NCBI GenBank assembly: GCA_900498245.1
Contig: LS998015.1
Span: 73,035-94,573 of the forward strand
Length of the DNA: 21,539 nt
Source: Candidatus Zixiibacteriota bacterium
GTDB taxonomy: Bacteria; Zixibacteria; MSB-5A5; GN15; PGXB01
Direction: 5' to 3'
In this document: piece by piece, positions 3,612-21,539 of the stretch
How positions within the stretch are numbered: position 1 is the stretch's first letter
Layout of the letters: the number at the start of each line of letters is the position of its first letter
Position numbers and translations under genes: made by a program
The notes under the pieces: generated by a model
The model's input: the letters and a program-made list of their open reading frames with translations, nothing else
Database searches by the model: none
Told to the model about the DNA's origin: nothing

Positions 3612-3652
3612 GAAATCGGCGTTTTCTGAGATTTCAGGAGACAAAAGAAAAG

Positions 3653-3725
3653 CTCCCCCGGCAGGACTCGAACCTGCGACCCGGTGATTAACAGTCACCT
3701 GCTCTACCAACTGAGCTACAGGGGA
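3653..3725 (-). tRNA. tRNA-Asn (GTT)
   Basis: A complete cloverleaf reads on the minus strand from 3725 to 3653: acceptor TCCCCTG/CGGGGGA (with one T-G pair), D arm GCTC...GAGC, anticodon arm GGTGA-CTGTTAA-TCACC with anticodon GTT, T arm GCAGG-TTCGAGT-CCTGC, discriminator G73 as usual for Asn. The CCA end is not encoded. Confidence 0.95.
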
Positions 3726-11165: not shown

Positions 11166-11774
11166 ATGGAAAAATTTTCTAAAATACTTTTGCTTCTCAA
11201 CCTGCTTTACCACCGTCAGGCCGTCTCGATTCCCGAGATAAAGCGTCTCTGCCGCATTTCCGAAAGGAGCGTTTATCGCTATGTAAATGTGCTTTCGTCG
11301 GCCCATTTCCCGGTAGTGTACGACCGCCGGCTCGGAGGTTACAGACTTCTTTCAAAAGGGCAGAAGCAATTTGACAGATTCGGTTTTGATGAGGCGATTT
11401 TGCTGGTACTGGCCCTGGATATGCTGGCCGACAGGGTGAACGGCGATTACGGGTCCATGATAAAAAACCTCATATCAAAAATAATGGCGGATCAGGAATC
11501 GTCCATCGAAACCGTGCTTCAAGGTTTTCTCCAGACTCCGCGTCAGCGGCGAGAGATGAGCGACTTAACTCAGACCCTTAACGACCTGATATTAAGGTGC
11601 GGCATCCAGGGATCAAAACGGATGAAGATTACCCTGAAATCAGACTGGAATAAGAAGTTTGATTTGAATAAGGCCATAATGAGCTTTGACAGTGTCTGGT
11701 GTATACAATTGAACGACCTTGACCATAAAGATGCCGTTGCTCTCGATGATATAAGAACGGTGCGCGCGGGATAG
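11166..11774 (+). CDS. HTH-type (winged helix, YafY/WYL-like) transcriptional regulator
   Basis: 202 residues. Residues 1-55 (SIPEIKRLCRISERSVYRYV followed by VYDRRLGGYRLLSKG) form a winged HTH of the HTH_11/DeoR-like type found at the start of YafY/WYL regulators. The middle is helical. The C-terminal 55 residues (ITLKSDWNKKF ... VALDDIRTVRAG) resemble a shortened WYL ligand-sensing domain, mainly through the final DDIR motif; a complete WYL motif is not visible. It is likely a cytosolic DNA-binding regulator sensing an unknown ligand. The HTH begins right after the chosen ATG, so 11166 fits although no Shine-Dalgarno is evident; the hairpin just upstream may matter for its expression. Confidence 0.75.
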   Translation: MEKFSKILLLLNLLYHRQAVSIPEIKRLCRISERSVYRYVNVLSSAHFPVVYDRRLGGYRLLSKGQKQFDRFGFDEAILLVLALDMLADRVNGDYGSMIKNLISKIMADQESSIETVLQGFLQTPRQRREMSDLTQTLNDLILRCGIQGSKRMKITLKSDWNKKFDLNKAIMSFDSVWCIQLNDLDHKDAVALDDIRTVRAG

Positions 11775-12032: not shown

Positions 12033-12114
12033 CCCGGGGTCGCTCCTTTATGGCCGGAAAAAAGATCCAATTGCACAAGCACTTGCGGCGAATTTTTAAG
12101 GGATTAAAACAAAA

Positions 12115-12160
12115 TGCGCCATCAAGGACTCGAACCTTGGGCCCGCTGATTAAGAGTCAG
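12115..12160 (-). other. attachment-site remnant: 3' half of tRNA-Lys(CTT)
   Basis: Read on the minus strand, 12160-12115 starts inside an anticodon arm (CTGA-CTCTTAA-TCAG, anticodon CTT), continues with a perfect T arm (CAAGG-TTCGAGT-CCTTG) and ends with a 3' acceptor strand ATGGCGC plus discriminator A. No D arm or 5' acceptor strand (expected GCGCCAT) follows at 12161 and beyond. Integrases of the tyrosine family often use the 3' half of a tRNA gene as the crossover site, leaving such a half copy at the far end of the element and an intact tRNA at the other end. I therefore read this as one end of an integrated element lying to the right. Confidence 0.7.
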
Positions 12161-12167
12161 AAGGACC

Positions 12168-12186
12168 GCGTTTCAGAATGAAACGC
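12168..12186. repeat. inverted repeat beside the attachment site
   Basis: GCGTTTCA (12168-12175) and TGAAACGC (12179-12186) form a perfect 8-bp inverted repeat with a 3-base GAA spacer, starting 8 bases inside the element from the tRNA break. It may be a recombinase or excisionase site or a hairpin. Confidence 0.5.
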
Positions 12187-12616
12187 TGCGGTTTAATGAG
12201 TTACGGTGGCAAGTCTCACGTTTCCCGGACACTATCAGGAGTCCTGTTTTCGATGCACCAAATGGCACCTAGTGCATCATGTTTCCATTATTGTCGCTAA
12301 TGTAAGTGCATGTTCATTAAAAGTCAAGTGACTCTTTATCCCGCGTTTGATAATATATAGGTAGGGAATTTTATTGGGTCCCATGTGATAATTTGGACAT
12401 TTGCTATCACGAAATTGGAGATCATTGCCCAAAAATTATTAGGAGGGAATCTTTCGACAATCAGATTATAGCATTCAAACTGCAATTACTCTTGACACCT
12501 TAACTCGATAAACTTGTTCAGCACCATGACCAAAGGCAACTTATGCGACCCAGTTGAACCCCAGAAATATTATTGAATCAGGGCTGAACTAAACGCCGGA
12601 AAAGCCCGAAAAATGC
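12187..12616. other. non-coding stretch at the element end, with a GTGCAT inverted repeat
   Basis: No convincing gene is seen. GATGCAC (12252-12258) and GTGCATC (12272-12278) form a perfect 7-bp inverted repeat with a 13-base spacer, and a further GTGCAT lies at 12306-12311. The same motif recurs in the promoter at 16081-16100 and at 16681. The end of the minus-strand operon (12617) is followed by no clear terminator. Confidence 0.45.
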
Positions 12617-13402
12617 TTACCAAATCTCCAAAAATCCCTTACTCCCCCGCTGAATAAGCCTTGGATCCTTACCCAAGACTGTCATCAATTCTTCCAGAGC
12701 ATCAATGACTATGTGGTGAACGATAGTAACCCAGGCCCTCATGTCCTGATGAACTAGAATATTTTTTGGCACAGATAGAGCATCAGAATACCCGGTAATC
12801 TTCGACGAAAGCCATCTTTTCAAACGCCCCGGCTCAACCGTCAGAAACCGGCAGCAGTCCAGATAATTGCCATAATCCCTGATCCCGATATATATGTGGT
12901 AATCATGAAATTCCCTGAGATTCACTAAAAGGAAATTGCGTTTGACCTTGGCAAATAGCCCTGAGCTTTTAACCAATCCATAAAACCATTCGCAGCCCCC
13001 GGGAATTTTGGCTTCCAGCAGCCTTTTATGAATATCCAGAATTACTTCCTGGGCATGCCCGGCCCCATGCTCCACAACTGTTCCCCATTCGTTAAGAATC
13101 AGCTCTTCCTTAATGATTTTTGATCCGCCCTTGAGGATACCAATCTCTGTCGAGCCTGACCTTGATTCTGAGTTCCCCGCATCGACGGACCGAAAAGCTT
13201 CATGATTCTGCTGACTTTCGTCTTCAATTTTAATCAATTTCTCTTTAAGCTTCCAAAGCCCACCCCGTTTGTCAGCTTCATACTCTACTATCATAAGGGT
13301 ATCTCGGTCATAATTTGCAGAGTTCTCCTCAAGCATTTTGACCAATTCGGCGTCATCGCACTTGCTGATTTTTTCTTCCATTTCCCGCAATTTCTTGTTC
13401 AT
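12617..13402 (-). CDS. hypothetical protein in the HerA-like ATPase operon
   Basis: 261 residues from the ATG at 13402, which has GGGAGG 4 bases upstream; a TTG at 13414 lies inside that ribosome site and is unlikely. The N-terminal 65 residues are highly charged and helical (MNKKLREMEEKISKCDDAEL), possibly a coiled coil. A polar Ser/Asn/Gln-rich linker (about 66-90) follows, then a folded-looking C-terminal part with aromatic strands (EFHDYHIYIGIRDYGNYLDC) and a final helix (VHHIVIDALEELMTVLG). I recognise no family, signal peptide or catalytic motif. It is the third gene of the operon, 17 bp after the replication-relaxation gene, so it probably serves the same DNA-handling process. Confidence 0.75.
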   Translation of the reverse strand: MNKKLREMEEKISKCDDAELVKMLEENSANYDRDTLMIVEYEADKRGGLWKLKEKLIKIEDESQQNHEAFRSVDAGNSESRSGSTEIGILKGGSKIIKEELILNEWGTVVEHGAGHAQEVILDIHKRLLEAKIPGGCEWFYGLVKSSGLFAKVKRNFLLVNLREFHDYHIYIGIRDYGNYLDCCRFLTVEPGRLKRWLSSKITGYSDALSVPKNILVHQDMRAWVTIVHHIVIDALEELMTVLGKDPRLIQRGSKGFLEIW

Positions 13403-13419
13403 AATACCTCCCAATTAAA

Positions 13420-14313
13420 TCACGTTTTTCCCCCTATTGAATAGACCTTATTATCATCCGGATTAATTGACCGCCAGACAGGCGAAAAAAGACTCTCCGA
13501 AGTGACATCTTGAAATAGCCCCAGCCAGATAAATTGCTTGGCTTTTTGGGGCACCTGAAGCCCAAATGTGGCTTTCCTAATATTCGCTAATCTGGCCTCA
13601 GAAGTTGTCAGATAAAGGGCTCGGAATCCTTTAAAAGCTTCAATGCCAAAATCCTTGGCATACCTTTGATAGCCCCCGTCAATCAAATAATTGGAATAAA
13701 ACCTCAGGCTTTTTAAAACCCCTTTATCGTTGTCAGAAACTGTTTCCGTTCCCCGATCGATCTCAAGAAAAAACAGGGCCGCCTTACCCGCTTTTTCCAG
13801 AGCAAAAACCCCGTCAGGAGTATGAGAAACTTGCTCCCTTTCTGCTGACATGTCGCAAACAACATCTCGGATATATTTGGCTATCCCGCCCTTTTCCGTG
13901 CGCTCTCCACAGTAATCAGGGATAAAACCCAACAGCTTGACCCTTTCCAGGCTACAGGCTTGATTTAGGATTATCCTGAAATCATTGATGGCCAGAAAGT
14001 GCCGCATAAAGTAATAGTCTCTTGGCTTGGATTTGATATCTGTTAATCTCAAATCCGACACTTCTGTTCCCAGAGCGGCCGCGACTACTTCCAATCCTTT
14101 TCTATCCACAGAAAATATTGATTCGCTTATATTGGCAACGGTGAATGAAGCCACCCAGCCGGCGTTTTTAAGCAGCTTCAGCCTGCGGTAGGCAGTCTGC
14201 ATAGAGGGAAAATGCAGGGCTTTCAGCTGGGAAACAGTCAAAAAGCGATGTTTGTATAAATCAACCAGAAGCTGACTGTCCCGAGCAGTAATTTTAAAAC
14301 CGGACTTCTTCAA
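13420..14313 (-). CDS. replication-relaxation family protein (copy A)
   Basis: 297 residues. Residues about 8-75 form a winged helix (RDSQLLVDLYKHRFLTVSQL ... AYRRLKLLKNAGWV). Shared with the copy at 20079 are an INDFR block (109-113, in HFLAINDFRIILNQAC), a PD pair (P166 D167, HTPDGVF) and FFLEIDRGTE (E184, D186). PD followed by ExD across a beta hairpin is reminiscent of restriction-like (PD-(D/E)xK) nuclease cores, though activity is unproven for this family, which is known mainly from plasmids. The TTG start at 14313 overlaps the TGA of the ATPase gene (TTGA), with a GAGG 7 bases upstream, so translational coupling to the ATPase is likely. The family call rests on the domain layout and shared motifs. 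Confidence 0.75.
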   Translation of the reverse strand: MKKSGFKITARDSQLLVDLYKHRFLTVSQLKALHFPSMQTAYRRLKLLKNAGWVASFTVANISESIFSVDRKGLEVVAAALGTEVSDLRLTDIKSKPRDYYFMRHFLAINDFRIILNQACSLERVKLLGFIPDYCGERTEKGGIAKYIRDVVCDMSAEREQVSHTPDGVFALEKAGKAALFFLEIDRGTETVSDNDKGVLKSLRFYSNYLIDGGYQRYAKDFGIEAFKGFRALYLTTSEARLANIRKATFGLQVPQKAKQFIWLGLFQDVTSESLFSPVWRSINPDDNKVYSIGGKT

Positions 14314-16070
14314 TCAAATACCTCTTCCGGATCCAGCCCGGCCAAGGGATCATCTCCTTGGTGATTATGCCTTGTCTCAGACCCAGTTGAGGGAAATATC
14401 CTTGGTATGCCGTACTTCTGCCGGGAAGTCTCAATAATAATTTCCGCCATTTCCCTGTCCGGGTGATCATCGACTTTGGGCACTCGCAAAGGAAAAGTGT
14501 TCCTGCCAATCCGGCAGTAAGCCTGGCCGATATTCAGCTTTAATAGCTCCTCAGGCTCCAGCGTTTCGATCTCAAAATCAAATTGATTAATGAATTCCTT
14601 TGATAATTTTAGAGAATCAGGCTGGGAGACCTGGAAGGAAACCATAGTCGAGACATTGCCGAATATCTCGCGCAAAAGCTCCAAAGGTATTTGCCCTGTC
14701 TGCTGGTGGGCTAGGATAAGCCCCAGTTTATACTTTCTGGCCCGGGAGAGTATTTTTTCATATGATTTAGAGGCTATTCCGCAGAAATTCTGAAACTCAT
14801 CAAGATATAAATAAAAGGGCTTCCTTGTCTGCTTGGCTTCATTGGCCCGGCTCATGGTGGCGGTTTGGAATTTGGAGACAATAAACTGGCCGATGAGCTG
14901 GCTGGCCGCCTCACCCAGGATTCCGTCAGACAAATTAAATAACAGAATCTTGCTTTCATCCATAGCCCGCCTGATATTTAATAGCCTATCAGCGACCTCA
15001 GATGTGCTAAAAGAAGTGTCTTTTGGGGGGCAAAGGCAGTTTCGAACAAATCTGGCTCTGATTATTCGTCCAATGCGGTTGACAACGGGAAAATGGGCGT
15101 CTTTGGGAAACTGCGGATAAATATGCTGAAAAAACTGCCTTGTCTGCTCATCAGAAGTAGTGCGGATTACCTCATTTCTCAAAGTAACGTCCTGCCGGTC
15201 AAGGAGAGGCTCGATATCAAGCAGGGTGGAGCCGGGCCGTTCCATCAGGGCATAAAGGGTGTGGCGGAGGATTTCATCCATTCTGGGCCCGCCTTCACCC
15301 GCAATCCTCTGCAAAATGGTAAAGGCTTCGTCAACATGAAGGTCAATATCCTCGCCAGCCTCAATATGAAGCGGATTCAAAACCACCGGTTGAGCCAGAT
15401 CAGCAGGATTGAAATAGATGACATCTTCGACCCGGTTCTCAGGAATGAAAGGCAGAATTTCCTCGGTCAGCATCTCATATTCCGGAGCCAGGACACCGAT
15501 GCCGTTCCCCTTTTCCAGGTCCTGTATGATCATGTATCGTAAGAAATTCGTCTTGCCGTAACCGGATTTGCCAATGACATAAATGTGCCTATCGCGGTAT
15601 TCCTCAGGGAGGATTACCGGTATGCCGCTTCGTCCGATGCCCTGGAAACCCAGTTCAATTCCCCCAACTGCGGATATGCGGCCTGCTATAAAAGAACAGA
15701 GGTCATCGGATGACATGCTGGAATCAATTTGCTCTTCCAGTTCTTCCCGGGACACTACCGACCGGGCGATATAACCCTGATAATTGGCAAAATAGCGGAC
15801 TACCTTTTCACACTCGGAAAGCCTCCTGGATTCGGACGCTTCCCGATCCAGGGCAGCTTGTTTTCTTCTTTCGGCATCTCTTCTGAATGCCCTGAAGAGA
15901 AACCAAAGCACCGCGAGAAGAACAAAAATGAAAAAGAGATTCTGCAATGATTTAGCCTTCTGAAACTGTTGAACGATGCTATATATAGCCTGTATATCGG
16001 CTGCATAATCGGATTCTACAGTGATGAAGCTAATTGATTGTGGAATATAGGGATTTACAAATGATATCAA
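14310..16070 (-). CDS. membrane-anchored HerA/VirD4-like DNA-translocating ATPase
   Basis: 586 residues. A short N-terminal segment precedes one membrane helix (about 44-60, NLFFIFVLLAVLWFLF), a charged helix, then the P-loop ATPase: HIYVIGKSGYGKTNFL with Walker A G167-T174, and FYLYLDEFQNFC with Walker B D424-E425. LILAHQQTGQIP (about 450) is the conserved Q-containing sensor block of VirD4/TraG/HerA ATPases. These proteins form hexameric rings that pump DNA, as coupling proteins in conjugation or as HerA-type translocases. The start is a TTG at 16070; no ATG occurs in frame before the membrane helix. It is the first gene of a three-gene operon with a replication-relaxation protein. No relaxase or secretion channel genes are seen beside it, so conjugation is only one option. 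Confidence 0.85.
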   Translation of the reverse strand: MISFVNPYIPQSISFITVESDYAADIQAIYSIVQQFQKAKSLQNLFFIFVLLAVLWFLFRAFRRDAERRKQAALDREASESRRLSECEKVVRYFANYQGYIARSVVSREELEEQIDSSMSSDDLCSFIAGRISAVGGIELGFQGIGRSGIPVILPEEYRDRHIYVIGKSGYGKTNFLRYMIIQDLEKGNGIGVLAPEYEMLTEEILPFIPENRVEDVIYFNPADLAQPVVLNPLHIEAGEDIDLHVDEAFTILQRIAGEGGPRMDEILRHTLYALMERPGSTLLDIEPLLDRQDVTLRNEVIRTTSDEQTRQFFQHIYPQFPKDAHFPVVNRIGRIIRARFVRNCLCPPKDTSFSTSEVADRLLNIRRAMDESKILLFNLSDGILGEAASQLIGQFIVSKFQTATMSRANEAKQTRKPFYLYLDEFQNFCGIASKSYEKILSRARKYKLGLILAHQQTGQIPLELLREIFGNVSTMVSFQVSQPDSLKLSKEFINQFDFEIETLEPEELLKLNIGQAYCRIGRNTFPLRVPKVDDHPDREMAEIIIETSRQKYGIPRIFPSTGSETRHNHQGDDPLAGLDPEEVFD

Positions 16071-16080
16071 GTCTCAACTG

Positions 16081-16114
16081 ATGCACATGATAGTGTGCAT
16101 TAGGCTCCCGCCAA
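16081..16114 (-). promoter_or_regulatory. promoter with palindromic operator for the ATPase operon
   Basis: On the minus strand TTGGCG (16114-16109), a 16-base spacer and TATCAT (16092-16087) make a plausible sigma70 promoter a few bases before the TTG start region. A perfect inverted repeat ATGCACA/TGTGCAT (16081-16087 and 16094-16100) brackets the -10 box, an arrangement expected for a repressor. Confidence 0.5.
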
Positions 16115-16200
16115 TGGTGGACATGGCAGCTAAATCTAGTGGTTTACATTTATTACAAGATCATTAATCTGTCCCAAAGAATGGACAATCTTGAAAGAAA

Positions 16201-16353
16201 TTGATTATAACAGAAATTTATCTGGCAATGTTGGCTATAACGGGATTTGCTCTGGGTCAATACTTCTCTTTCCGTAAACTCGGGATTGTAGAAATAGAAG
16301 CCTATAAGACGGCCTTTCGGCCATCCCCTACATCCTCTGAGATGGCCCTCTAG
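16201..16353 (+). CDS. possible 50-residue membrane peptide
   Basis: The frame from a TTG at 16201 to a TAG at 16351 encodes a hydrophobic helix (IYLAMLAITGFALGQYFSF) followed by a basic, polar tail (RKLGIVEIEAYKTAF). An alternative start is the ATG at 16228. There is no good ribosome site, so this is only a candidate; the helix makes it worth recording. Confidence 0.3.
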   Translation: MIITEIYLAMLAITGFALGQYFSFRKLGIVEIEAYKTAFRPSPTSSEMAL

Positions 16354-16436
16354 GGGCAATTTGGCGCCGGGCCGTGCTTATTCGTTATTTGGGACTTAGA
16401 GTCTTTTTTCCTTAAGGTGGATTGAATCATAGGATA

Positions 16437-16595
16437 GTGGCAACAAACCAAAAAGAAGACAATTCAGTAGGTGAGGAAATATTTATCAAAAAGGGGTTGA
16501 TAAGAGGCCAAATACGTCTTAACTTTAAGAAGTTGGGGTCCATGAGATTTGACGAAATTCAGGCGGCAAGCGTCTGCGGTGGTCAAGGGCGGTAA
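16437..16595 (+). CDS. possible 52-residue basic peptide
   Basis: A frame open from about 16422 (TTG) or 16437 (GTG) to the TAA at 16593 reads VATNQKEDNSVGEEIFIKKG, then LIRGQIRLNFKKLGSMRFDE. It looks protein-like but the start signals are poor and no family is recognised. The rest of 16115-16820 shows no other gene. Confidence 0.25.
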   Translation: MATNQKEDNSVGEEIFIKKGLIRGQIRLNFKKLGSMRFDEIQAASVCGGQGR

Positions 16596-16665
16596 ATCTT
16601 AGGAAGGCAATAACAAATTAAATGATAGGCTCTAATTCGCAGAGGAATGGGATATCAGCAAGTGA

Positions 16666-16694
16666 TTGTGATAGGGCAAAGTGCATCATAACTT
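16666..16694 (+). promoter_or_regulatory. weak promoter candidate with GTGCATCAT box
   Basis: TTGTGA (16666-16671), a 17-base spacer and TAACTT (16689-16694) could drive the cargo genes from 16821. The -10 match is poor. The spacer contains GTGCATCAT (16681-16689), the same motif as the operator at 16081-16100, suggesting shared control. Confidence 0.3.
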
Positions 16695-16700
16695 AAGGTA

Positions 16701-16725
16701 TCGCCAAGTCGGAATTGTTTGGCGA
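16701..16725. repeat. inverted repeat upstream of the cargo genes
   Basis: TCGCCAA (16701-16707) and TTGGCGA (16719-16725) are perfect 7-bp arms with an 11-base spacer, just downstream of the weak promoter and about 95 bases before the cargo start codon. Likely an operator or leader hairpin. Confidence 0.4.
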
Positions 16726-16820
16726 CGTACAGGGCCAGTCAGTCAATTGATCGCCAGTTGCGGGTCAAGCAGAGGCATTCAATCATCAATTATTGCCAAA
16801 TGAATGGAAGGAGGTCATCC

Positions 16821-17678
16821 ATGAAGGGATGGCTTTATGAAATTTTGACCAAGCCTAGGGCTGGCTCATTACGATATATATTTCTTAATATGTCATTATG
16901 TCTTTTTGTTGTGGCTTTCTGCATTATTCCCGCCTTGACACACGCAAATGCTCTCACCAAAGTCATGCTCTATAGCCCCCAAAACAAAAACCGCCCTGTA
17001 TTGACATTATCAGGGAATTATAAAGAAAAACTTGAACAATCGGTTTCCTCAATCCGAAAGGATTCTTCCTCAGAAGGAGACTCATCCCGTAGAAATTTTA
17101 AAATCCTTTCTCTGCTGCTTTCCTTTGGATTTGGTTACGAAAATCTCAATAGTTCTGATTTTAAAAGATTCGAACAGGCTGGCTTGGGCAAAATCCATCA
17201 GAGTGCTTTCGAGGTTCGCTTGGAAACTGGGGCTGCCATAAACCTCAGGTATTTATTAATGTCGGGCCTGGTTTCATGGCATGGTGGAAGCCATAATTGG
17301 CTGAAATTCTACGGCAGCGATCAGTGGATCCCGTTACAGAGTTCGGCTCTCGATTTGGAATTAGAGGTAGGTCCAATTTTCGTAAGTTCTGATCGGATAT
17401 TGACACCCTTTCTAATTGTTGGCAAGACTTTTAATATGAATTTGACTGATAAAGACGGCAATGGTTTTAACAAAGGAGAAGGCCCCATATTTTATGGCGG
17501 TGGCGTTGGAATAATCTCCGACATCGGATCATTTGGAATAAGTGGTAATCTAAAATTTATCTACTATGGAAATTGCGCCTACAAAGCATTCAAGGTAGGT
17601 GACCAATTCCCACTGGAAGTGAAATTGTCACCCTACTCCATTACCCTGGGATGCGCAATTTGGATAAACATATTTTAA
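16821..17678 (+). CDS. exported protein, probable outer-membrane beta-barrel
   Basis: 285 residues. AAGGAGG (16808-16814) six bases before the ATG at 16821 fixes this start; the frame is open further upstream without a ribosome site. A long basic N-region precedes a signal-type hydrophobic stretch (FLNMSLCLFVVAFCIIPALT) with a likely cut after THA. A polar Ser/Lys-rich linker (about 70-90) follows. The rest alternates aromatic and polar residues in strand-like blocks with Gly-rich turns (LLSFGFGYENLNSSDF, GPIFYGGGVGIISD, SPYSITLGCAIWINIF), as expected for a small beta-barrel. No specific family is recognised. It probably forms a two-gene operon with the next barrel-like gene 54 bp downstream. 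The DNA is more AT-rich than the left part of the window. Confidence 0.65.
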   Translation: MKGWLYEILTKPRAGSLRYIFLNMSLCLFVVAFCIIPALTHANALTKVMLYSPQNKNRPVLTLSGNYKEKLEQSVSSIRKDSSSEGDSSRRNFKILSLLLSFGFGYENLNSSDFKRFEQAGLGKIHQSAFEVRLETGAAINLRYLLMSGLVSWHGGSHNWLKFYGSDQWIPLQSSALDLELEVGPIFVSSDRILTPFLIVGKTFNMNLTDKDGNGFNKGEGPIFYGGGVGIISDIGSFGISGNLKFIYYGNCAYKAFKVGDQFPLEVKLSPYSITLGCAIWINIF

Positions 17679-17732
17679 TCCATCCCGAAATTCGTGCATA
17701 ACAATGAAATTCTGAATAAAAGGAATAAAAAA

Positions 17733-18326
17733 ATGCGAGAGAATTATATTTCATTAATGGCGATATTTCTGTTTTTAGTTTTCGCCAGCGATGTTTGCTC
17801 TCAATCAGAAAAAATGAAAATGCAGTTTACATTCGGTATAAGTTCAGTGAGATTGCAGCAGTCATTTATAAGCGGCACCGTAATTCACGATCTCAAATCA
17901 TTTTCACATCTTCAATGCGCGCCGGGGTATTATTTCAATGAGCACGCGGAGCTTGAATCGGAAATTATATTCCCAATCAATAAAAGCGACAGGTTTGGAA
18001 TTAATTTGAATACGAATTTCATCTATAATATTTTCGACTACAATTCCCCATTTTTCCTGGTTGGAGCCGGATTTGAAAAATCCCATCGCTACATATATGA
18101 GGGATATGATGATGAGGGAAGGTCATTAAATTTGAATTTCAGCAAAGATTATGCGGTATTAAATGTGGGCGTGGGTCTAAAAGTCGCATTTTATCGCGAT
18201 AGCAAATCCGCCTATCGCATGGAGTATCGATATCAGAAATACTATATAATGGGAGACAAATCACCTTTCGACCCCAATTTAAGTTTCCATTACTTTCTTA
18301 TTGGATTATCGTTATTCATGATTTAA
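17733..18326 (+). CDS. outer-membrane beta-barrel protein (OmpA-N/OMP_b-brl-like)
   Basis: 197 residues from the ATG at 17733, which has AAGGAA about 8 bases upstream; a longer in-frame GTG start at 17694 lacks a site. The signal peptide is MRENYISLMAIFLFLVFASDVCSQ. The mature part is a series of strands alternating hydrophobic and polar residues (MQFTFGISSVRLQQSF, FFLVGAGFEKSHRY, AVLNVGVGLKVAFY, AYRMEYRYQKYYIM) ending in FHYFLIGLSLFMI. The LVGAGF ... NVGVGLK ... EYRYQ pattern is typical of eight-stranded OmpA/OmpW-type barrels. Its role is unknown; as cargo of the putative element it could alter the cell surface. Confidence 0.7.
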   Translation: MRENYISLMAIFLFLVFASDVCSQSEKMKMQFTFGISSVRLQQSFISGTVIHDLKSFSHLQCAPGYYFNEHAELESEIIFPINKSDRFGINLNTNFIYNIFDYNSPFFLVGAGFEKSHRYIYEGYDDEGRSLNLNFSKDYAVLNVGVGLKVAFYRDSKSAYRMEYRYQKYYIMGDKSPFDPNLSFHYFLIGLSLFMI

Positions 18327-18648
18327 TTGATCCCAAAATTCCACCGCTTGGGGCGGACATGCAAACATCTTCTTTGTTTTGGCACTTTTTGACCCAGTGG
18401 ACGATAATTGGTTCATCAGCCCTGTTTTATTACCAAAATTAGGCGAGATCCCCCTAGAGCCCCTGGCACAAAAGGGGCTTGGCATTCTTTTCTATTCTTT
18501 CGCATTAAGAGCATCATGATTTACTTGGCCAAAATTGCTGACTGGCGCATATATTCGTCAATATTATTAATTGGCAACCTGTGTTCCATAACTCATTAAA
18601 CCACAAGTATTTTTGTCAAATCAGTGTCATTAAAAATAGATAAATGGC
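18327..18648. other. non-coding gap with a possible terminator
   Basis: No gene is supported here. The one clear structure is AGCCCCT (18458-18464) pairing with AGGGGCT (18473-18479), an 8-base loop, followed by a T-rich stretch, which could terminate the barrel-protein operon about 130 bp after its stop codon. Confidence 0.4.
18458..18490 (+). terminator. possible intrinsic terminator
   Basis: A perfect 7-bp G/C-rich stem (AGCCCCT/AGGGGCT) with an 8-base loop is followed by a T-rich but interrupted tract. Confidence 0.4.
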
Positions 18649-18677
18649 TTGACAAATGCTGTTTTTGCAAATATTCT
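18649..18677 (+). promoter_or_regulatory. sigma70-type promoter of the TPR gene
   Basis: A perfect -35 TTGACA (18649-18654), a 17-base spacer and -10 TATTCT (18672-18677) lie about 50 bases before the start codon at 18727. Confidence 0.65.
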
Positions 18678-18726
18678 TTAATCCATTGGATTGTATCCTC
18701 TAAACTTTTAAAATTGGAGAGCCATA

Positions 18727-19536
18727 GTGAATAAGATTATAATGGTCTGTGTTTTTTGTTGTATTTTCTGCGCGAATGCAAGCGGAAAGAAGGATGAGGC
18801 GGCTGAATTGCATAAAAAGGGATTGCAATATATTGAAAAAGAACAATATCAACAGGCAGTTGAAACCTTCAAAAAGGTAGTTGCAATCAAACCTGATGAT
18901 GCGAAAGCTTACAATAATTTGGCTCTTGCTTATTGTAACCTTGTACGCTATCAAGAAGCGATTGATGCATGCCTTGCAGCCATACGGATTGACCCCACTT
19001 TACCAGAACCTCACTGTTATTTGGGTATAGGTTATCTTGGCTTGGAACGCTTCCAAGAGGCCGCAACTGCATGTGAAGAATCAATCCGCTTGAAACCTGG
19101 TTTTGTCTTAGCCCACAAGACACTTGCTATGATCTATGAAAAACTTGGTCGCGCAGATGAAGCCAAAAAACACATTCCAGGTCTGCTTATGACCGGGCCA
19201 TTCGGGGTTCTTAACGAAAAACACGGAGAAAATTGGTATGTAATTGATTGCGGTCGGAGCGCTATAATCATCGACAAAGAGATCAAAGCCAAATTGGATA
19301 GGCAAGGATCCCTTGAATTGATGCCGGGAGAGCATTCCGTTCTTATAAAGGATGGTTCAAGAACCATACATCTCGTTATCGAGTCCGGCAGAGCTTATCA
19401 GTTGCTGCGCATCATGCCATTGGGTATGGAGCAGTACTCAAATATGGTCAATTACTGCATTGAAGTGCATGACCCTGACATCAGAACCGGAAATGGCGGG
19501 ACTCGCTTGGATTGTCCTTGGAATCAAAACCGGTGA
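18727..19536 (+). CDS. secreted TPR-repeat protein
   Basis: 269 residues from a GTG at 18727, with GGAGA six bases upstream (18716-18720) and a good promoter. The signal peptide is short and Cys-rich (MNKIIMVCVFCCIFCANASG); there is no clear lipobox. Residues 25-58, 59-92 and 93-126 are three canonical TPR units (AKAYNNLALAYCNLVRYQEA; PEPHCYLGIGYLGLERFQEA) and 127-152 a partial fourth. The C-terminal half is a beta-rich domain (GSLELMPGEHSVLIKDGSRT) whose 'MPGEHSV' turn resembles PEGA-like or carboxypeptidase-regulatory folds; that part is weakly assigned. It likely acts in the periplasm or at the surface as a protein-binding scaffold. It is monocistronic, in AT-rich cargo. Confidence 0.8.
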   Translation: MNKIIMVCVFCCIFCANASGKKDEAAELHKKGLQYIEKEQYQQAVETFKKVVAIKPDDAKAYNNLALAYCNLVRYQEAIDACLAAIRIDPTLPEPHCYLGIGYLGLERFQEAATACEESIRLKPGFVLAHKTLAMIYEKLGRADEAKKHIPGLLMTGPFGVLNEKHGENWYVIDCGRSAIIIDKEIKAKLDRQGSLELMPGEHSVLIKDGSRTIHLVIESGRAYQLLRIMPLGMEQYSNMVNYCIEVHDPDIRTGNGGTRLDCPWNQNR

Positions 19537-19620
19537 GACCAGCTTGATATATAAATAATTTGAAATAGTTGAGAGGGGTCAATAATCTGATGTTCATAAT
19601 GTGTGATTCTTTTTTATATA

Positions 19621-19640
19621 GATCCTGATATTACAGGGTC
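19621..19640 (+). terminator. weak terminator candidate after the TPR gene
   Basis: GATCCTG (19621-19627) pairs with CAGGGTC (19634-19640) with one G-T pair and a 6-base loop; the sequence after it is only moderately T-rich. Confidence 0.25.
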
Positions 19641-19700
19641 ATTATTCTTAGGGGCGAGTGTGGGGCACTATGTTTAGAATTCGGCTAGTGACGATGATCC

Positions 19701-19729
19701 GTGACATTAATTATCAATTTGCATATAAT
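19701..19729 (+). promoter_or_regulatory. sigma70-type promoter of the frameshifted small gene
   Basis: GTGACA (19701-19706, five of six), a 17-base spacer and a perfect TATAAT (19724-19729) lie about 65 bases before the ATG at 19794. Confidence 0.6.
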
Positions 19730-19793
19730 AGATCGTGATGTTTGTGGTTGAATTGTAAATTGTCATTCATAATCTAGTCGCAAAGGAGTGCAC

Positions 19794-19999
19794 ATGAATG
19801 ATGAGCAATTGAAAAAATCAAATCAATTGCAAATGAGCACAAGATTCTAAGTGCTCTTGGGACAAACCGAAAAATCCTTATGTTTGTTCTTGACAGAAGG
19901 GGAATTGAGTGGCAAATCTTAATACATGAAGATTTTGAAGCATTTGACTTGCAGGACGCTCCTTGGCAAGCATTGAAATCAAACTCTAGAAAATATTGA
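19794..19999 (+). pseudogene. small gene with a -1 frameshift at an A6 run
   Basis: The ATG at 19794 has a strong ribosome site (AAAGGAG, 19782-19788) and a good promoter, but frame 0 ends after 18 codons. Reading MNDEQLKK, then slipping back one base at the A6 run (19812-19817), gives a protein-like 68-residue product: IKSIANEHKILSALGTNRK, ILMFVLDRRGIEWQILIHED, FEAFDLQDAPWQ, ending KSNSRKY and TGA at 19997. The second frame has no start of its own. So either the gene is intact by programmed or polymerase slippage, or one A of an original A7 was lost. The family is not recognised. Confidence 0.5.
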
Positions 20000-20012
20000 A
20001 TTTGCTCCCGCA

Positions 20013-20045
20013 CCCGGCAGATGAGGATATCCTCAATCCGCCGGG
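20013..20045. repeat. nested palindromes at the end of the replication-relaxation operon
   Basis: CCCGGC (20013-20018) and GCCGGG (20040-20045) enclose a perfect 12-bp palindrome GAGGATATCCTC (20023-20034). It lies just downstream of the minus-strand gene ending at 20079 and could act as a transcript-end hairpin or protein site; there is no T tract on either strand. Confidence 0.45.
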
Positions 20046-20078
20046 CCCGTTATACCTTTAGCCAGCTCCGGTTTTCGG

Positions 20079-20996
20079 TCAGCACACCGGTGGTTTACCT
20101 GGTGCTGTCGGGAGCTTTGAGGGGGGCCCGGAGGGTATTAGACTGGTCATCAATTCAATCCCGTCTCTGCAATATGTTTTCCAAATCGGTTTAAGCATAC
20201 TCTCGGGTTTATAAAGGGAATATTGGGAAAAGTCAGTCATATAGATTATGTCCGGTCTGGAGAAAGATGGTGGAAAGGTCTTTAGGGAATCAAGCATATT
20301 CCTAAGCCGCTTTTGGCCTGAGGTGACAAATAGCACTCGGAATGATTGGATGTCCAATTTCGTAATCAATGATTTATTGTGCCATAATGAAAGATAGGCA
20401 GAAGCTTTTGACTTGATTCTTCCCAGATCGGCGGTTCCCCGGTCAATCTCCAAAAAGAAGGCAAATTTCTTCTCTTTGACCTTTAATTCAAAATAGGCGT
20501 CCGGTACTAAGACAGTCTCCTTCATGCCGGTCTTTTGAAAAGCAGGAACTCTTATTTTTATATCTCGGCCTTGCTTCCAGCGTTCAATAATTGGCTTCCC
20601 GGATTTTCGGCAGGCTAAGTCCAGGCAGAGTCTGAAATCATTAATGCAGATGGAATGTTCGCTGAATGAGGTCGAGTATTGCCGGTGTCGGGTCAGCTTT
20701 GATGGTCCTTTTCGTTCACCTTCAAGTAAAGCTTTTCCCTTGGCCGAGAGAGCATATAGAAAAGCAGCTGATCCCTCGCCCATTCTCACCGGCCTAATGA
20801 TTCTATTCAATAATCGATGCTGCCAAAGTTGATACAATCGCTTACGCGCGCGATTGATTGAGGGGAAAAGCAAATGAAATATCTGTTCGGTTGAAAGTAT
20901 CCTATAATCAGCAACAGCTTTTAAGATCCTTTTGTCCCTGTCGTTTACCTGCAAGGGCCTATGGTCTGCCTTGGGTTTTATTATTGGAGATTTCAT
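20079..20996 (-). CDS. replication-relaxation family protein (copy B)
   Basis: 305 residues. Residues about 17-85 form a winged helix (NDRDKRILKAVADYRILSTE ... RARKRLYQLWQHRLLNRI). It shares with copy A the INDFR block (118-122, HSICINDFRLCLDLAC), PD (P165 D166, LVPDAYFELK) and FFLEIDRGTA (E183, D185). The PD...ExD layout recalls a restriction-like nuclease core, but the classical Lys is not obvious. The C-terminus (PSGPPSKLPTAPGKPPVC) is Pro-rich and probably disordered. Its start overlaps the upstream RuvC-like gene by 38 bp, so the two are almost certainly co-transcribed. Copy A is 5.8 kb away and quite diverged, so this is not a recent duplication. Confidence 0.75.
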   Translation of the reverse strand: MKSPIIKPKADHRPLQVNDRDKRILKAVADYRILSTEQIFHLLFPSINRARKRLYQLWQHRLLNRIIRPVRMGEGSAAFLYALSAKGKALLEGERKGPSKLTRHRQYSTSFSEHSICINDFRLCLDLACRKSGKPIIERWKQGRDIKIRVPAFQKTGMKETVLVPDAYFELKVKEKKFAFFLEIDRGTADLGRIKSKASAYLSLWHNKSLITKLDIQSFRVLFVTSGQKRLRNMLDSLKTFPPSFSRPDIIYMTDFSQYSLYKPESMLKPIWKTYCRDGIELMTSLIPSGPPSKLPTAPGKPPVC

Positions 20997-21510
20997 AATT
21001 GGATAGATTGCCGTCTTTTTTAAAGGCCAGATAGGTCAGACCGCAGGCCACGGCGTCAAATAAATTTTGATTGTATCGTTCTTTCCAATGGATGTGTGAT
21101 TCCCGATAGACCTTAAGTTCCTTAAACTTGGCGGAGACCACCCGGGCGATGATTCTCTTGGTGGCCCGACCGTCACCGGTGACTGTCTTCTTAATAGTAC
21201 CGGCCGCAAATTCATAGACCGGAATGCGGTTTTTTTGGGCGAGTCTTTCAATGAGAGCAATGGCTTTGTCAACTGAGGACTCTGAAAATCCTTTGGGAAA
21301 GCAGGTCTTTTCAATGGCGATGGCATCCGGCATCTTTTCCTTAATCAATCTTGTCATGATCTGAGCCAGTGTCTTTAAGACCGGGATTCTTGAATACGTG
21401 CGCCTCAGGGATTTGACCCCATAGTCGATTAAATCTGACCCTAAAAAGTGGGCCACGCCCATTTCCCGCAGACCCGGATCAATGGCCAACAAACTAGGCC
21501 TGCCGTCCAT
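20959..21510 (-). CDS. RuvC-fold Holliday junction resolvase-like protein
   Basis: 183 residues. LLAIDPGLREMGVA gives the first catalytic Asp (D11), IAIEKT the catalytic Glu (E67), and NLFDAVACGLTY the C-terminal Asp (D152). In E. coli RuvC the last motif holds two Asp three residues apart; here the first is N149, so only three of four acidic residues are visible. Other blocks fit the family (SVDKAIALIERLAQKNRIPV; KKTVTGDGRATKRI). Such enzymes cut four-way DNA junctions formed in recombination or replication. RuvA and RuvB are not adjacent, so this is an element-borne resolvase rather than the housekeeping copy. The ATG at 21510 lacks a strong ribosome site. It is the first visible gene of the operon with copy B. 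Confidence 0.75.
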   Translation of the reverse strand: MDGRPSLLAIDPGLREMGVAHFLGSDLIDYGVKSLRRTYSRIPVLKTLAQIMTRLIKEKMPDAIAIEKTCFPKGFSESSVDKAIALIERLAQKNRIPVYEFAAGTIKKTVTGDGRATKRIIARVVSAKFKELKVYRESHIHWKERYNQNLFDAVACGLTYLAFKKDGNLSNYEISNNKTQGRP

Positions 21511-21539
21511 AATTTCTGAGGATGTGAATGAAAATTGCC

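Follow-up and report, generated by a model that had tools for sequence, protein, structure and literature searches.

An orphan tRNA half in the window

What is half a tRNA gene doing on its own, and what does it mark? The stretch of DNA analyzed here (the window, 21,539 nucleotides) spans C1:73035–94573 of a genome that consists of the single contig C1 (3,508,505 bp), and a window base is the C1 position minus 73034. The minus strand of window bases 12115–12160 reads CTGACTCTTAATCAGCGGGCCCAAGGTTCGAGTCCTTGATGGCGCA, which corresponds to positions 28–73 of tRNA-Lys(CTT) and covers part of the anticodon stem, the CTT loop, the variable region, the T arm, the 3' acceptor strand, and the discriminator A. 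An earlier note, made from the sequence alone, had described the anticodon arm, T arm, and 3' acceptor strand as perfect and the 5' half as missing, and both descriptions hold. No 5' half of tRNA-Lys was found in the next 400 nt, where the best ungapped match to the 27-nt 5' part was 13/27. As expected for a half gene, it was called neither by ARAGORN nor by Rfam at the gathering score; the sole tRNA called by these programs in the window was a tRNA-Asn at 3652–3725.

Chance is not an issue for this match. When the 21-nt anticodon-arm block was searched for across the 3.5 Mb with up to two mismatches, it occurred at three sites (the half, an intact tRNA-Lys(CTT), and a tRNA-Met(CAT) with two mismatches), and perfect copies were present exactly twice, in the half and in the intact tRNA-Lys(CTT). 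The reversed control pattern gave zero sites in the same 3.5 Mb. A tandem array or an older element to the left of the half was ruled out, as there is no further copy of the tRNA-Lys block.

An intact tRNA-Lys and an integrase gene 118 kb away

The earlier note had proposed that the half is the distal att site of an element inserted in the 3' half of a tRNA gene, and had predicted that an intact tRNA-Lys(CTT) would lie to the right of the window, on the same strand and with the 46-base block duplicated. The prediction was borne out by 50 identical bases: the 46-base block and four common terminator T's form an exact repeat that starts at the second anticodon-stem base, extends to the tRNA 3' end, and recurs without mismatch on the same strand, 118 kb to the right, at C1:203140–203189. 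This copy sits within an intact tRNA-Lys(CTT) (C1:203144–203216) that adjoins tRNA-Lys(TTT); the lack of a second copy in the genome, which would have refuted the proposal according to the note, is thereby excluded. The interval that ends with these two repeats, which we call E1, is C1:85145–203189 (~118 kb, with 117,945 bp between the repeats), and its G+C fraction is 0.432 between the repeats compared to 0.495 in the left flank and 0.499 in the right flank.

An integrase gene, which the note had suggested looking for beside the intact tRNA, is also present. The gene (C1:202105–203031) encodes a complete tyrosine recombinase of 308 aa, starts 109 bp from the repeat on the element side, and is transcribed away from tRNA-Lys(CTT). 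Its product matches Pfam Phage_integrase PF00589 with E=9e-39 and has the catalytic set R-K-HxxR-H-Y, as in active tyrosine recombinases; the best named models are XerC, XerA, and XerD, with scores under their cut-offs. Integrases of the same subfamily lie about 109–162 bp downstream of the 3' ends of tRNA-Asp, tRNA-Arg, tRNA-Arg, and tRNA-Lys in genomes G018, G035, G024, and G037, respectively, and no distal tRNA halves were found for them within the 15–19 kb examined. Used as a query, the E1 integrase gave one distant match (27%) in genome contigs and none in viral contigs, and the E1 coupling protein likewise gave no match in viral contigs.

We conclude that the half tRNA is very probably the distal attachment site of a 118-kb, tRNA-inserted integrative element, E1, which is most likely mobilizable. 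In the mechanism that we propose, a XerC/D-like tyrosine integrase would have recombined a circular form of E1 with tRNA-Lys(CTT), with strand exchange placed in the anticodon arm because the repeat runs from the second anticodon-stem base to the tRNA 3' end. The att site of E1 itself would bring a tRNA 3' half, so that the integrase end would again have a whole tRNA read from the host promoter, and the old 3' half would be pushed to the far end of E1, where it would be the half seen in the window. The reverse reaction would excise the circle and restore a single tRNA. For transfer, E1 would use its own MOBC-type relaxase and coupling ATPase and a mating channel borrowed from another element.

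Gene content of E1

The left end of E1 carries a module of putative transfer genes (Table 1), in which the second relaxase candidate overlaps the RuvC-like gene. A second TraD/HerA-like ATPase of E1 (C1:174787–176073) and a PD-(D/E)XK protein are encoded near a defence-like stretch, which contains SMODS and SMODS/AGS_C nucleotidyltransferases with 2TM/SLATT effector candidates, a TIR protein, AbiEi/AbiEii, an Mrr-like nuclease, an SMC/AAA protein, and Fic. Additional cargo comprises metallo-beta-lactamase-fold proteins, radical-SAM proteins, a PAS histidine kinase, response regulators, and paralogues of two adjacent host-side proteins, the 1414-aa regulator and the HTH regulator. Because three further tyrosine-recombinase genes lie inside E1 (at 139–150 kb of C1), the element may be composite, with nested units.

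The short hairpin next to the element end is a candidate for a terminator, an accessory-factor or arm site, or a transfer-related site; an obvious counterpart was not seen at the left end of E2, the related element described below. Elsewhere in the genome, at C1:490.9–497.1 kb, a further pair of PF13814 genes occurs with a VirD4/TraD-like and a RuvC-like gene at host-like G+C, and this gene set may represent a relative of E1 and E2 that is older or has decayed.

Table 1. Features at the left end of E1 and in the adjoining host-side cluster K (window coordinates; positions outside the window are given on C1).
Feature	Position	Strand	Remarks
Host-side kinase-TPR-GAF-sigma54 activator, 1414 aa	6352..10596	+	Cluster K; E1 paralogue 49% identical at C1:110848-115023
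Host-side HTH regulator	11166..11774	+	Cluster K; E1 paralogue at C1:115591-116199
ORF62, host-side ORF of 62 aa	11844..12032	+	Last gene of cluster K; about 80 bp separate it from the half tRNA
Orphan 3' part of tRNA-Lys(CTT), positions 28-73 + TTTT, read as distal att site	12111..12160	-	50-bp perfect direct repeat of C1:203140-203189
Element DNA in the window (left end of E1)	12161..21539		E1 runs on past the window edge to C1:203139
Short perfect hairpin GCGTTTCA gaa TGAAACGC	12168..12186		7 bp inside the element end
Conserved protein of unknown function, 261-265 aa	12617..13414	-	E1 left end; E2 counterpart 86% identical
PF13814 Replic_Relax protein, MOBC-type relaxase candidate	13420..14313	-	E2 counterpart 82% identical
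VirD4/TraD-like DNA-transfer ATPase, coupling protein candidate, 586 aa	14310..16070	-	E2 counterpart 84% identical
Second PF13814 Replic_Relax protein, 305 aa	20079..20996	-	
RuvC-like Holliday-junction resolvase, 183 aa	20959..21510	-	

Relatives and the rearranged left flank

The earlier note had also called for a comparison with relatives that lack the insertion. When 60 genomes were searched with the anticodon-arm block (few loci were viewed singly), G001, which is from the same genus, and most others had one CTT copy, the other matches were copies with two mismatches and other anticodons, and no related genome with the half but no element, which the note had named as grounds for dropping its proposal, was noticed. 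Genome G011 has a second tRNA-Lys(CTT), which was rejected as a half tRNA because it is a complete gene. On the right flank, the order FKBP, tRNA-Lys(TTT), tRNA-Lys(CTT) is kept across the family. An exact empty site, in which ORF62 would adjoin an intact tRNA-Lys, was not found, and the tRNA-Lys loci of 29 relatives matched the left flank only in the tRNA sequence itself.

A simple empty site was not found because tRNA-Lys ancestrally had a neighbour other than the DNA that now lies left of the half. In G001, G004, G006, G008, and G013, tRNA-Lys is followed by a dienelactone hydrolase (DLH) gene, which in the studied genome lies at C1:373.7 kb together with CHAT, NorB, RecO, and GlyRS; DLH, and not cluster K, is therefore the ancestral neighbour as judged from gene order. 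Comparison within the genus involves one draft genome, G001, in which a close relative of the E1 integrase is absent (best E 1.8e-29, about 30% identity) and in which cluster K adjoins a tRNA-Glu 3' fragment that has the same orientation; in the studied genome, the tRNA-Lys half is found there instead. The possibility that the half-RNA beside ORF62 in G001 is a tmRNA end was rejected, as it matches the tRNA-Glu 3' end. The non-ancestral left flank and the position of cluster K next to a tRNA-Glu fragment in G001 place a rearrangement breakpoint near the att site, and this breakpoint is probably older than E1, since the two repeat copies of E1 still match perfectly.

Alternative explanations

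Could the half be unrelated to the tRNA at 203 kb, having been left behind by an old element that has since been lost, or having arisen by a chance tRNA duplication? Such an origin would suit a rearranged spot, which the left flank shows this to be, but the 50-bp repeat is perfect and correctly oriented, it encloses a single low-G+C stretch, and an integrase lies at the expected end, and we regard a remnant or duplication as very improbable. It is also unlikely that the interval between the tRNA copies holds a prophage, or a complete ICE capable of its own transfer, instead of a mobilizable element, although relaxase candidates and VirD4/TraD-like ATPases could be expected of an ICE as well. 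Searches with PF03135, which represents one VirB4 family and was the sole mating-channel model used, gave no match anywhere in the genome and did match in a control search of Caulobacter; no phage structural family was detected among about 45 E1 proteins scanned with Pfam, which are part of the element's genes. The lack of a VirB4 match is one reason for reading E1 as mobilizable; the other is that PF13814 is known as a MOBC relaxase domain in integrative mobilizable elements (IMEs) and that plasmid CloDF13 is mobilizable with a coupling protein of its own. An element of this class has its own integrase and relaxase, for which E1 offers the PF00589 protein and two PF13814 candidates, and its genes make an integrative mobilizable element the most likely class for E1.

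A further possibility supplements the main explanation and does not compete with it, namely that the element end in the window is also an inversion breakpoint, with the 203–250 kb segment and its outward-facing tRNA-Lys and tRNA-Glu genes flipped relative to G001. E1 would then have entered after the flip or been carried along, and the half would still mark the end of E1, but its neighbour would be uninformative about the original site. We give this inversion about an even chance. In G001, tRNA-Lys adjoins CHAT/DLH, cluster K adjoins the tRNA-Glu 3' fragment, and other neighbours of cluster K map to C1:351–358 kb, all of which is consistent with a flip; G001 is, however, a draft with contig ends here, and a simple inversion leaves about 100 kb (271–371 kb) unaccounted for.

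A sister element in tRNA-Gly

The same genome contains a second element, E2 (87 kb, C1:2197096–2284156), in tRNA-Gly(TCC). The stretch C1:2197138–2284115 of E2 has the left-end module of E1 (80% identical at the nucleotide level over 3.5 kb), and another common module, with a PD-(D/E)XK and a TraD-like gene, is 82% identical over 3.9 kb; the two integrases are 44% identical. Both ends of E2 carry a 41-bp repeat that corresponds to the tRNA-Gly(TCC) 5' half: the left end has the intact gene, and next to the integrase is an orphan 5' half. In relatives, the genes to the right of the orphan half and to the left of the intact tRNA-Gly are neighbours, contiguous around the tRNA. The orphan half retains an upstream TATAAT-like stretch similar to that of G004, and the intact tRNA-Gly has element DNA upstream. 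Based upon these gene orders and the TATAAT-like stretch kept by the orphan half, E2 appears to have supplied tRNA-Gly with a new 5' half and to have moved the original promoter away from the gene.

We lean toward a picture in which integrases of one subfamily cross over in the anticodon arm with the same polarity in both elements, with E1 rebuilding the 3' half of its target and E2 the 5' half, thereby taking the functional tRNA-Gly from its own promoter. If so, a switch of the carried tRNA half would be an easy evolutionary step within one element family. E1 and E2 lend themselves to a natural comparison of how the repair of the target tRNA changes within an element family and whether the tRNA then depends on an element-borne promoter.

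E1 (C1:94730–96914) and E2 (C1:2208.9–2211.2 kb) agree at 97% of positions in two stretches, of 1,027 and 485 bp, compared to only 80–82% for the backbones, which suggests a recent exchange between the two. A probable third element occupies C1:250622–271358 (about 20.7 kb), where an intact tRNA-Glu(TTC) has an adjacent tyrosine recombinase gene (250872–251606) and a distal 3' fragment at about 271.3 kb. The element-side flank of that fragment is conserved in G001 and G004.

Comparison with known systems

E1 is a mobile element of 118 kb with well-defined boundaries and a cargo of defence and regulatory genes. It comes from a lineage in which few relatives have been compared, and its discovery illustrates that a half tRNA spotted by eye can locate an element whose far end lies 118 kb off. 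E1 resembles the tRNA islands of the Islander collection, in which 3,760 of 3,919 islands leave 3' fragments and the anticodon subsite is the commonest, being used by 2,083 of the 3,919 (PMC4383910). Like islands of subsite A and the 3' fragment type, E1 has an intact tDNA and a fragment on one replicon in the same orientation (both minus), the 3' fragment lies on the 3' side of the intact tRNA, a tyrosine integrase gene is inside the interval and near the intact tRNA, and the length of 117,945 bp falls within the Islander range of 2–200 kb. We see no essential difference between E1 and these islands; the E1 integrase is nearest to XerC/XerA/XerD models. E2 corresponds to the Islander 5'-fragment type, a known but rare one (159 of 3,919 islands; PMC4383910).

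With respect to transfer genes, the domain given for MOBC relaxases of streptococcal IMEs is PF13814 (PMC5357655), and plasmid CloDF13, of the MOBC1 family, encodes the MobC relaxase and its own coupling protein, MobB, and needs a helper T4SS (PMC7431656). In E1, PF13814 and VirD4/TraD-like genes lie side by side, with ATPase similarity to VirD4/TraD that is weak (E about 1e-5 to 1e-8). Unlike CloDF13 and MOBC IMEs, E1 is chromosomal and 118 kb long, its relaxase candidates and coupling-type ATPases number two each, and it has a RuvC-like gene. The tRNA-island mechanism itself is ordinary and is cleanly confirmed here, and E1 is a fresh example of a well-known kind of element.
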